The notes below the pieces were generated by a model. The model had not been told where the DNA came from. It was given only the letters and a program-made list of their open reading frames with translations, and did no database searches. Positions 16,210-19,196 of a stretch of DNA of 21,279 nucleotides are shown piece after piece (position 1 is the stretch's first letter; each line of letters begins with the position of its first letter). The DNA is from a virus. The stretch spans positions 1-21,279 of IMG/VR virus record IMGVR_UViG_3300035698_016634. One strand, given 5' to 3'. A program made the position numbers and the translations under genes.

Positions 16210-16291
16210 TTTATGAAGAGTCCCCCTCGTTGACCGCTCAAAGATATTGGGTTAATTCTTTTGACAAGTCAACGGGCCAAAGGAGAAAACG
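16210..16291. promoter_or_regulatory. Divergent promoter region, primase versus recombination operon
   Basis: Eighty-two bp separate the two divergent starts. TTGAC occurs at 16230 and 16261 and its complement GTCAA at 16268, giving a TTGAC-AA-GTCAA dyad (16261-16272) and a wider GTTGAC/GTCAAC pair (16229-16234, 16268-16273). TTGACC at 16230 followed by 17 bp and TAATTC could be a plus-strand promoter with a poor -10. TTGACT on the minus strand (16267-16272), 17 bp before CAATAT, is a better minus-strand candidate. AGGAG six bases before ATG 16292 is a clear ribosome site. Confidence 0.45.
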
Positions 16292-17086
16292 ATGTTTACA
16301 AGCGTCAATCAAATCATAGATAAAACCATTTCGATTCTTTTGTGTGGGAAGTCTGGGTCGGGAAAAACGTCGATCGTAAAAACCATTCCAGGCGAAGCGA
16401 AAAGAATTCTTTTAATCAACGCAGAAAACGGTCTACGGTCAATCGCAGACAGTGAAGTGATTGTCTTTGATCTCACTAAAGAAAAGAGCGGCGAGAAAGT
16501 TGTTCCAACGAATCGAATCGATCGATGGAAAAAGTTCCATGCGTTGATTTTAGATCTGACATTCAACGATAAATACAAAAAAGCTTTCGACTGGATCGTG
16601 ATTGATTCACTGACTGAGGTCGCGCAGAATCTCGTCGAATCATTGAAACACAAGTATCCTGATAAGAAAGACAGTTTCTCTTTGTGGGGCGAATACGATG
16701 AGCAAATGAGCAAACTTGTTCGCAGCTTGCGCGACATCGGAAGTTACAACGTTCTATTCATCACGCTTGATCGAGTCGACAAAGACGATGAGGGTGTGCG
16801 ACACGTTGGCATTGAAGTGCCAGGGTCGGCAATGAAAAGAAAATTGCCTGCGTTCGTCGATGAATACTTTTACTACATGAAAGAGATCGACGTTGAAGGG
16901 AATGAAAAACGTGCGTTGCTCACTCAGAATTATAAATTCATTGGTGCAAAAGATCGCAGCGGCAAGTTAGATAAATTTGAACGTCCTGACATTGGGGCGA
17001 TCATGGAAAAAATAAACGCGAAAGCAAAAACAGAAAAGGAAAAACCAAAGAATGAAACTAGGCAAACAAATACAGGAAGCAAGTAA
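16292..17086 (+). CDS. Sak4-like recombination ATPase (AAA_24/RecA-like), 264 aa
   Basis: This is a single RecA-fold ATPase domain of the phage AAA_24/Sak4 type. Walker A is GKSGSGKT (19-26), LLINAENGLRSI lies at 40-51 and Walker B is WIVIDSLTEV (101-110) with Asp105. A further strand YNVLFITL and the conserved VPGSAMKRKLPAFVDEYFYY region follow. Sak4 proteins pair and anneal single strands during phage recombination, acting with a single-strand binding protein. That fits the next gene, whose start overlaps this one by 35 bp. The charged C-terminal tail is Lys/Asn/Thr-rich. AAGGAG upstream of ATG 16292 gives strong initiation. It is the first gene of the plus-strand operon. Confidence 0.8.
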   Translation: MFTSVNQIIDKTISILLCGKSGSGKTSIVKTIPGEAKRILLINAENGLRSIADSEVIVFDLTKEKSGEKVVPTNRIDRWKKFHALILDLTFNDKYKKAFDWIVIDSLTEVAQNLVESLKHKYPDKKDSFSLWGEYDEQMSKLVRSLRDIGSYNVLFITLDRVDKDDEGVRHVGIEVPGSAMKRKLPAFVDEYFYYMKEIDVEGNEKRALLTQNYKFIGAKDRSGKLDKFERPDIGAIMEKINAKAKTEKEKPKNETRQTNTGSK

Positions 17087-17471
17087 CTCAACGGGTGGGT
17101 TCGTGATTGACCCTGGCGAATACGACGTGGTCTGTGATGCTGCGGAAGTATGTGTTACGAAAAAAGGCAACGGGAAATACGTCAAGGTCGTGCTCGTGTT
17201 GACTGGGAAAGATCATGAGGGATTTAAAGTCTTTCAAAACTTCACGCTTGAAAACCCAAGTGAAAAAGCGGTCGCAATTGGCATGAGTCAGTTGAAAAAC
17301 TTTCTCATTGCAAGCGGAACAAGTGAAGAGAACGTCGGCGAGGTTGATGTGCCGAGTGAATTAGTGAGTCGAAAGTGCGTCGCAGACTTAGCAATTGAGG
17401 TCAATGAAGACTATGGCGATCGTATGAGGGTGAAGAAATTTCTCCCGTCACCAGAAGACATTCCATTCTGA
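17052..17471 (+). CDS. DUF669-like single-strand DNA-binding protein, 139 aa
   Basis: This is a beta-rich OB-like protein with a GGFVIDPGEYDVVCDAAEV opening, then GNGKYVKVVLVLTG, a FKVFQNFTLENPSEKAVAIG segment and a MRVKKFLPSPEDIPF end. The acidic tail closing with DIPF is the classic C-terminal tip of bacterial SSB proteins, used to recruit partner enzymes. The central pattern is that of DUF669 phage proteins, which commonly lie beside Sak4-like ATPases and are thought to serve as their SSB. It starts inside the ATPase gene and ends immediately before the repeat element, so the first 17-bp repeat begins at its stop codon. Confidence 0.8.
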   Translation: MKLGKQIQEASNSTGGFVIDPGEYDVVCDAAEVCVTKKGNGKYVKVVLVLTGKDHEGFKVFQNFTLENPSEKAVAIGMSQLKNFLIASGTSEENVGEVDVPSELVSRKCVADLAIEVNEDYGDRMRVKKFLPSPEDIPF

Positions 17472-17487
17472 ATTAAATAACAATTTG
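17471..17487 (+). repeat. 17-bp direct repeat, copy 1
   Basis: AATTAAATAACAATTTG begins at the last base of the SSB stop codon and is repeated exactly at 17575-17591. The two copies bracket a structured stretch. Confidence 0.85.
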
Positions 17488-17567
17488 GGGTTTGCCCGAA
17501 AGGGACTAAGGCTTGCGAGTGGTGTGTGACAAGCCATTTCCGTGTAGACTCACACCAATGCCCCGAA
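17484..17567 (+). other. Folded intergenic element with a predicted pseudoknot
   Basis: An outer helix pairs TTTGGGG (17484-17490) with CCCCGAA (17561-17567). Inside lies a CCC-GAAA-GGG tetraloop hairpin (17495-17504). Next is a GGCTTG/CAAGCC helix (17510-17515, 17530-17535) whose loop contains GGTGTG (17521-17526), complementary to CACACC at 17551-17556, which would make an H-type pseudoknot. It could be a riboswitch-like leader of the helicase gene, a small RNA or part of an origin. No known class is recognised. Confidence 0.4.
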
Positions 17568-17574
17568 GCTTTAA

Positions 17575-17591
17575 AATTAAATAACAATTTG
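17575..17591 (+). repeat. 17-bp direct repeat, copy 2
   Basis: This is an exact copy of 17471-17487, placed 104 bp downstream, start to start. It runs straight into the long hairpin that begins at its final G (17591). Confidence 0.85.
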
Positions 17592-17649
17592 CTGCGCGCG
17601 TATTAGTATGTGAACTTCCTTGTTACCGTATGTGATGTGCGCACGCAGC
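17591..17649 (+). other. Long hairpin with two 8-bp repeats in its loop
   Basis: GCTGCG (17591-17596) pairs with CGCAGC (17644-17649). After a C-A mismatch, GCG/CGC and two to three weaker pairs continue the stem. The loop contains GTATGTGA twice (17606-17613, 17628-17635), 22 bp apart. It precedes the helicase gene by about 60 bp. An operator or origin element is more likely than a terminator, since no U-run follows directly. Confidence 0.5.
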
Positions 17650-17708
17650 AATCTTTTATCCACTCTTTGAGTGACGTCGTTTAGAAAACGAAAAACAGAA
17701 AGAAGAAA

Positions 17709-19196
17709 ATGAAACTTAGAAACTATCAAAGCAAGTGCGTCGACGACGTATGGAAAACACTATTCAACAAAAACGAATGCAACGTATGGATGCCGACCGC
17801 AGCAGGCAAAACAGTTATTTTCTCAGCACTCATTCGCAAAGCGCTTGACGGTGCGAAAGCACACAATCAAGAATTCAAAACATTAATCATTGTTCCTAAG
17901 ATTAATCTCGTTGAACAAACCATTGCTAAAATATATGAGCACTGTGCGATCGATGGCGCTATTTATTGTGCGTCGTTGAATCAAAAGTCGATGAAAAAAA
18001 ACGTGATCGTCGGCACGAAACAAAGTCTCTGCAAAGTCAAAGAAGAGGATTTACCGAAAGTGAATCTCGTCATTGCTGATGAATGGCACAACTATGCAAA
18101 CAGCGGCGAGTATGGCGTGATGCTTGAACGATTGCACGATGCAAACCCTAAACTAAAAGTTGTGAATTTTACTGCCACACCATACGGAAGTCAGAACGAA
18201 TTGATATTCGAGCCCGACGTGCATGAGGAGCTCTCTCATTTAGTCGCGCAGCGTTGGCTTGTTCCGCCTGTCTTTAAGAGCTCGCCTGAGAGTTTCGACA
18301 CGAGTCATTTGAAACTTGTGAACGGTGATTTCAAGATAAAAGATCTTGAACGATTGTCTTTGCAGGACGTGCAAAAGTCGCGCAAGCAAGTCAGGGACGG
18401 GCTTTCGAGATTGAGTGATCGTGCGCATGTGTGCTGGACATGCACTTGTATTGAGCACGCACGCGTGATCTATGAGATATTGACGAAAGATTGCGCGCAG
18501 ACAGCGAGTATTGTGCATTCTCAAATGAACATGAAAGAGCGCATGGTCCACACCAAATCATTCGAAAAGGGGTGGTCAAAGCATTTGGTGAGTGTGTTGA
18601 TTGTTAGCGAGGGGTGGGACTTTCCGGCGCTTGATGCGATCGTAAACCTTCGCCCCACCAGGAGCTTGAAACTATACATGCAGCTCGTGGGTCGTGGTTT
18701 GAGGTTGTTTGAAGGCAAAAAGAATTGCTTGTTCATTGACTACGGCGGCACTGCGAAAGAATTAGGGCATCCATACAACCCTGAGATCAATCATGACCCT
18801 GAGAGAAAGTATGTGAACGAGAACCCTGGCAAGGTATGTCCGTCGTGCGCGGAGATTGTCTTTGGAAGGATATTCTTTTGCCCGTCGTGCAAGTATGAAT
18901 TCACGAAAGAAGAACGTGAGTTTACGAGCGTGAAAAAGCTGTCTGCGAAAGCTGATGCGAACGGTGCGACGGTGAAGAGGTTGAACGTATTGAGTCATGA
19001 CTTTGTTTTGCACTATAGAACGCGCACAGGGCGCAAAGGGCTTGCTATTTTCTGCATCACGATTGAGGGAAAGAAGATGTTTTATTGTGACTCGCAGAGC
19101 GTAAAGCTTCAATATTACTATGGGTTGATAACCTCAGGCTGGGTGCCAAAGGTTGTCGAGGCGAATCAAAAGTTTATCACTGCTTTTGTTGACTAG
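17709..19196 (+). CDS. SF2 DNA helicase, RadD/UvsW-like, 495 aa
   Basis: All main SF2 motifs are visible: Q-motif-like RNYQ at 4-7, Walker A TAAGKT at 30-35, motif Ia VPKINLVEQ (62-70), motif II DEWH at 124-127 (in place of DEAH/DECH), motif III TATP at 155-158, motif V SEGWDFP at 300-306 and motif VI QLVGRGLR at 325-332. A CPSC-x10-CPSC zinc ribbon (C377, C380, C391, C394) follows the second RecA domain, as in bacterial RadD, which works with SSB. The SSB-like gene lies just upstream. A ~100-residue C-terminal domain of unknown fold completes it. Likely roles are branch migration, fork restart or annealing control. The start has only a weak GAAGA-type ribosome site. Confidence 0.88.
   Translation: MKLRNYQSKCVDDVWKTLFNKNECNVWMPTAAGKTVIFSALIRKALDGAKAHNQEFKTLIIVPKINLVEQTIAKIYEHCAIDGAIYCASLNQKSMKKNVIVGTKQSLCKVKEEDLPKVNLVIADEWHNYANSGEYGVMLERLHDANPKLKVVNFTATPYGSQNELIFEPDVHEELSHLVAQRWLVPPVFKSSPESFDTSHLKLVNGDFKIKDLERLSLQDVQKSRKQVRDGLSRLSDRAHVCWTCTCIEHARVIYEILTKDCAQTASIVHSQMNMKERMVHTKSFEKGWSKHLVSVLIVSEGWDFPALDAIVNLRPTRSLKLYMQLVGRGLRLFEGKKNCLFIDYGGTAKELGHPYNPEINHDPERKYVNENPGKVCPSCAEIVFGRIFFCPSCKYEFTKEEREFTSVKKLSAKADANGATVKRLNVLSHDFVLHYRTRTGRKGLAIFCITIEGKKMFYCDSQSVKLQYYYGLITSGWVPKVVEANQKFITAFVD

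Follow-up and report, generated by a model that had tools for sequence, protein, structure and literature searches.

A repeat-flanked element and a stem-loop in the gap between the SSB and helicase genes of an uncultivated phage

Introduction

The translational operator of T4 gene 32, which encodes the single-stranded DNA-binding protein (SSB) of this phage, consists of a pseudoknot with an unstructured region containing UUAAA/UAAA repeats behind it, and both parts are required for repression; M13 gp5, in turn, acts as a repressor on the mRNA of a different replication gene (PMC535899, PMC3014915). Pseudoknots are also known from the STAXI motif (RF01728), which is found close to genes whose products bind ssDNA or otherwise manipulate DNA (PMC2864571). 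On its 3' side, T4 gene 32 has a GC stem together with a T run.

Here we compare these systems with the gap between the SSB and helicase genes in a 21.3-kb phage record, the whole of which was analyzed and is referred to below as the window. An initial annotation of this DNA had pointed out a repeat-flanked, pseudoknot-like element in the gap and had proposed it as a new regulatory RNA, an origin or a recombination hotspot.

Results and discussion

Gene neighbourhood

The minus strand of the window carries structural and primase genes and the plus strand carries a replication block, with a divergent gene boundary at 16210-16291. The features considered in this study are collected in Table 1. 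A gap of 237 nt (17472-17708) separates the SSB gene from the helicase gene, and the repeat-flanked element occupies its first half. From the SSB stop (17471) to the helicase start (17709), no ORF reaches 60 aa, in line with the initial annotation, which placed no gene in the element; no tRNA or tmRNA is present in the window. Gene order in annotated relatives is annealing protein - (hypothetical) - SSB - (other genes) - YqaJ/Cas4-type exonuclease - helicase; the window lacks the exonuclease gene and has only the non-coding gap at this place. The C-terminus of the window SSB (17460-17471), EDIPF, resembles the tip of E. coli SSB, whereas the aligned relatives have PW-type tails.

Table 1. Features of the SSB-helicase region in the window and loci of the handle-and-insert element in other viral contigs
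Feature	Position	Strand	Details
Sak4-like annealing protein gene	16292-17086	+	
SSB gene, DUF669 family	17052-17471	+	139 aa, C-terminal tip EDIPF; Pfam PF05037, E = 2.5e-8; phrog_2300, phrog_6015; six-SSB alignment
Direct repeat, copy 1	17471-17487	+	17 bp, AATTAAATAACAATTTG
Predicted outer helix, 5' arm	17485-17491	+	UUGGGGU
Predicted hairpin CCC-GAAA-GGG	17495-17504	+	3 bp, GNRA loop; CCC 17495-17497 with GGG 17502-17504
Candidate pseudoknot helix 1, 5' arm	17510-17515	+	GGCUUG
Candidate pseudoknot helix 2, 5' arm	17520-17526	+	UGGUGUG
Candidate pseudoknot helix 1, 3' arm	17530-17535	+	CAAGCC
Candidate pseudoknot helix 2, 3' arm	17551-17557	+	CACACCA
Predicted outer helix, 3' arm	17560-17566	+	GCCCCGA
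Direct repeat, copy 2	17575-17591	+	17 bp, AATTAAATAACAATTTG
Long stem-loop, then AATCTTTTAT	17589-17651	+	best supported structure of the gap; MFE -27.9, z = -3.99, 1/200 shuffles
SF2 helicase gene	17709-19196	+	ResIII/DEAD, Helicase_C
Handle-and-insert element	L031:1719-1790; L039:5450-5537; L090:4465-4545; L110:6978-7029; some 150 others (viral loci L091-L278)		

A conserved stem-loop slot behind the SSB gene

The whole SSB-helicase gap folds better than 200 of 200 shuffles (z = -3.07), mainly because of the long stem-loop at 17589-17651, which lies at the edge of the repeat-flanked element and is absent from the initial annotation. Since its tail (AAUCUUUUAU) is a poor U-run, termination at this site is uncertain; the stem-loop is also unlisted in a consensus terminator scan.

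With the six-SSB alignment as query, 80 viral loci with related SSBs (28-47% protein identity) were obtained. In most of these relatives (L003-L087), the SSB stop is followed at a distance of at most a few dozen bases by a GC-rich stem-loop, which in some cases is a textbook terminator. In 67% of 78 DUF669-type SSB loci, a fold of -18 kcal/mol or lower lies no farther than 90 nt from the SSB stop, compared to 24% for other stop codons of the same loci (n = 403; Mann-Whitney p = 3e-15, an optimistic value because the 78 loci are related to each other). The window shares with T4 gene 32 and with these relatives a GC-rich stem behind the SSB gene; it differs from them by a repeat-flanked module on the 5' side of the stem-loop and by the weak U-run. 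One relative has an elaborate structure behind its SSB gene (L009:1189-1312), in which a terminator-like outer stem (TTGGGTGAG...CTCACCCAACCTTTTTT) surrounds a folded domain.

The reading that we prefer, although only tentatively and at somewhat less than even confidence, is that the gap (17472-17708) forms a structured stretch of mRNA between the two cistrons, which acts in cis and keeps SSB expression separate from that of the helicase. The stem-loop at 17589-17651 would be the counterpart of the stem-loop that is usual behind the SSB gene of related phages, most likely acting as a leaky terminator or a 3'-end protector, and as a consequence the SSB could be made in excess over the helicase. 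The stretch 17471-17591 would represent an extra module between the SSB stop codon and this stem-loop, which may act in cis at the RNA level and probably arrived by insertion or duplication, leaving the 17-bp repeats behind.

Direct repeats and base composition

Perfect 17-bp repeats with a 104-bp period had been noted before, and they are indeed present as two identical copies of AATTAAATAACAATTTG. The pair is the longest non-simple repeat of the window, repeats of at least 17 nt anywhere in the sequence were obtained in 2 of 200 whole-window shuffles, and the repeats are beyond chance. The segment between them has 54% GC, compared to 8% and 17% in the tracts on either side.

The location next to replication genes, the direct repeats and the AT-rich tracts might also suggest a replication origin or a site-specific recombination site, and one DnaA-like 9-mer (TTATCCACT, one mismatch) is present at 17656-17664. 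However, DnaA-like 9-mers are not enriched in the window (8 versus 4.4 expected, with 8 reached in 10 of 100 shuffles), the repeat has only two copies, and the divergent gene boundary lies elsewhere. We regard such a site as very improbable, and the earlier proposal of an origin is not supported. As for a recombination hotspot, an insertion or duplication in the past could account for the repeats, but an empty site is not known.

Predicted fold of the element

According to the initial annotation, the element contains an outer 7-bp helix, a GNRA-like tetraloop hairpin and an H-type pseudoknot of two 6-bp helices. All of these can be drawn, with several differences in detail. The outer helix has just four G-C pairs, its remaining U-A and G-U pairs being weak; the stem around GAAA is only 3 bp long; and the second pseudoknot helix comprises 7 bp, which gives a candidate H-type pseudoknot with helices of 6 and 7 bp and loops of 4, 3 and 15 nt.

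The nested fold of the element is no more than chance, with MFE z scores against shuffles of -0.41 (17485-17576) and -0.64 (17471-17591), and the pseudoknot is borderline. Its stacking score was matched in 7 of 500 dinucleotide shuffles of the element (about 1.5%, or roughly 1 in 70 per element) and is equalled or exceeded at five other places in the window, the two strands counted; a strict 6+6 Watson-Crick pseudoknot appeared in 5 of 300 gap shuffles and occurs seven times on the two strands of the window. Among the intergenic gaps of the window, the element is the best pseudoknot scorer by a small margin (-25.9 vs -24.3). The stacking score is a crude yardstick in both directions because the published T4 pseudoknot is missed by it. 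Taken as a model, the fold of 17485-17566 is weakly supported, and the view of the element as exceptionally folded is not supported, given the nested z scores and the five other places in the window. The proposal of a regulatory RNA survives in part: position and context are compatible with it (a gene-free, GC-rich stretch behind the SSB stop, in the stem-loop slot of the relatives).

The same measurements bear on the possibility that the element has no RNA function, with the repeats being a neutral duplication and the helices in 17485-17566 being chance complementarity in a GC-rich spacer. The nested z scores, the five places with pseudoknots as good or better and the lack of any homologue found are in its favour, whereas the conserved tendency of the slot towards structure, the rarity of the pseudoknot in both sets of shuffles and the contrast between the GC content of the element (54%) and that of its flanking tracts (8% and 17%) speak against it. 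On balance, we consider this explanation somewhat unlikely.

Searches for homologues and known RNA families

No Rfam 15 family reached its gathering cut-off in the window; the best chance match was sR35 (14.1 vs 60 bits). Together with the separately tested STAXI model, for which the window gave no match at E values up to 10, this agrees with the earlier statement that the element matches no known riboswitch or ribozyme class. Helicase and terminase searches of viral contigs revealed no close relatives, a distant blastn search in phages gave nothing, and no copy of the element was observed in the phages with related SSBs (28-47% protein identity). The outer-handle pattern of the element had 0 matches in viral contigs, and the pseudoknot pattern had 13, none of which extended to the second 3' arm.

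An 18-mer of the element (GCCCGAAAGGGACTAAGG) was found in one viral contig (L002) and in two unrelated bacterial contigs. The viral contig has 21 nt (TTTGCCCGAAAGGGACTAAGG) in common with the window, followed by AGC, just 5' of a start codon, and lacks the second half of the element. These 18-mer matches are consistent with chance, as about one would be expected under an assumed collection size.

The letters shared with L002 are one argument for a small gene of 21-23 codons starting at GTG 17519, in which case the conserved-looking letters of the element would be protein-coding. This ORF has UAAGG 7 nt before its GTG-GTG and a stop codon inside repeat copy 2. Its codon score (-0.06 per codon), on the other hand, is below that of 98% of equal windows in the genes of the phage and typical of out-of-frame sequence, and the viral match can be a chance one for the reasons given above. 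With such non-coding codon usage, the small ORF was rejected, and a gene at this site appears extremely unlikely.

Comparison with the T4 operator and the STAXI motif

The operators of T4 and RB69 gene 32 resemble the window in having an H-type pseudoknot (a candidate one in the window) and A+U-rich, UUAAA-type tracts beside a phage SSB gene. The pseudoknot helices (predicted) and the adjacent A+U tracts of the T4 operator are present on paper in the window; the unstructured A+U-rich repeat tracts are AAUUAAAUAACAAUUUG and, directly 3' of the element, UUUAAAAUUAAAUAA. Differences are found in location, as the T4 operator is 5' of the SSB gene and overlaps the ribosome binding site whereas the window element follows the SSB gene, with over 100 nt left to the helicase start, as well as in the longer loops (4, 3 and 15 nt), the outer helix and the SSB family.

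By analogy, the element could be an SSB operator of the gene 32 kind, in which the SSB would nucleate on the pseudoknot and spread over the A+U-rich repeat tracts on either side, so that free SSB would control its own mRNA or the synthesis of the helicase. The adjoining SSB gene, the low GC content of both flanks (8-17%), the sharing of AATTAAAT between the T4 leader (GTTAATTAAATTAAATTAAA) and both window repeats, and the T4 and M13 precedents cited in the Introduction are consistent with this scheme. Nevertheless, the element is located 3' of the SSB gene and repeat copy 2 ends 117 nt before the helicase start; because these 117 nt and the strong hairpin precede the helicase start, the A+U tracts do not overlap a ribosome binding site. 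A+U tracts are also frequent (28 in the window), there is no enrichment of the UUAAAUUAAA-like motif, and the SSB families differ (DUF669 vs gp32). We estimate such an operator to be distinctly unlikely but a live alternative, and mechanistically the most interesting one. If the pseudoknot and its A+U-rich flanks do bind SSB, a control circuit of the gene 32 type would exist beyond the T4 group, with its site 3' rather than 5' of the SSB gene.

STAXI likewise combines a pseudoknot (a candidate in the window) with a nearby ssDNA-binding-protein gene. Its pseudoknot is repeated two or three times, whereas the gap has a single candidate and the repeats of the window are its A+T-rich flanks. With neither a match to the Rfam model nor a repeated pseudoknot, the identification of the element as STAXI was rejected.

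A handle-and-insert RNA element in the same slot of other phages

Two of the 80 SSB loci (L031 and L039) have a larger element behind the SSB gene, which also occurs in other viral contigs (Table 1): its 5' motif (GGGCYGAAAGCGGATGCTG) and its 3' motif are each present in at least 120 viral contigs. A constant handle, GGGGCY-GAAAGCGGAUGCUG ... CAGACGCAGCGAGUA-RGCCCC (also written GGGGCY-GAAAGCGGATGCTG ... CAGACGCAGCGAGTA-RGCCCC(ACC)), encloses a hypervariable insert, the length of which ranges from 10 to about 140 nt. Both sides of the closing helix GGGGCY/RGCCCC show C-G to U-A changes, with 10 double-changed cells versus 3.2 in shuffles. Among the matches listed, 115 of 120 elements start at most 10 nt from the stop codon of the upstream ORF, the distance usually being 4-8 nt, and 99 of 100 contigs have exactly one match to the model of this element (R1).

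Unrelated inserts were observed in 43 of 65 contig pairs in which both flanks are at least 80% identical over at least 250 nt; conversely, 50 contig pairs have an insert in common (at least 85%) between flanks without similarity. Judged from these sequence comparisons, the inserts are exchanged between phages. In the fetched loci, inserts are found only inside such handles, except for a 20-nt tRNA T-arm match. A scan of 55 flanking proteins recognized SSBs of several families, RecT, endonucleases and Cas4-type exonucleases, with many remaining unrecognized; SSB, RecT and endonuclease genes are among those upstream of the element, which often follows a gene for an ssDNA-binding protein. The idea that the inserts are mostly pseudoknots was discarded, as they show no pseudoknot excess. 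We found no description of this element in the open-access literature, and it looks more important than the window element.

Three loci connect the handle-and-insert element with the slot behind DUF669-type SSB genes. In L244, L263 and L090, it lies behind the SSB stop and is followed by an A-tract with a stem-loop; the same site is empty in L038 and L056, whose flanks are 76-84% identical to those of the filled loci. The stop - RNA element - stem-loop order of the three filled loci is the order seen in the window. The two elements are also alike in slot, size and GC-rich closing helix; they differ in that there is no match in sequence or model. Membership of the window element in this family was rejected, because the best R1 score in the window (9.7 bits) lies elsewhere in the window and members score 44-75 bits, and its best similarity score to family members or inserts was reached by 49 of 100 shuffles. 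Its outer helix begins 13 nt after the SSB stop and before the next start, compared to mostly 4-8 nt in the R1 family.

The window element could still be an exchangeable RNA module of this sort with a different handle, the 17-bp repeats being the scar of its arrival. In addition to the shared slot and order in phages of the same SSB family, the similar size, the GC-rich closing helix and the perfect repeats on both sides are compatible with such a module, and its orphan sequence is what fast exchange would predict. Against it, the element does not match the handle model and resembles no insert beyond the level of shuffles, the inserts of the known family are without pseudoknot excess, and the putative handle of the window has no second copy in viral contigs. 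We rate this alternative as unlikely. Quite improbable is a broader version, in which the window element would be an independent case, having a handle and flanking repeats of its own, of a phage habit not described to date: one exchangeable structured-RNA module per genome would be kept directly behind a gene, often one for an ssDNA-binding or recombination protein, and would be swapped between phages like a cassette. If the module was inserted, the window element would join the handle-and-insert elements, which raise the question of why there is one swappable RNA module per uncultivated phage, often behind a DNA-metabolism gene.

At its cut-offs, Rfam 15 recognized nothing in the handle-and-insert elements apart from a single insert with a tRNA score (30 bits, cut-off 29). 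This insert is found in L098 (1085-1186) and L189, and its acceptor stem is apparently supplied by the handle.
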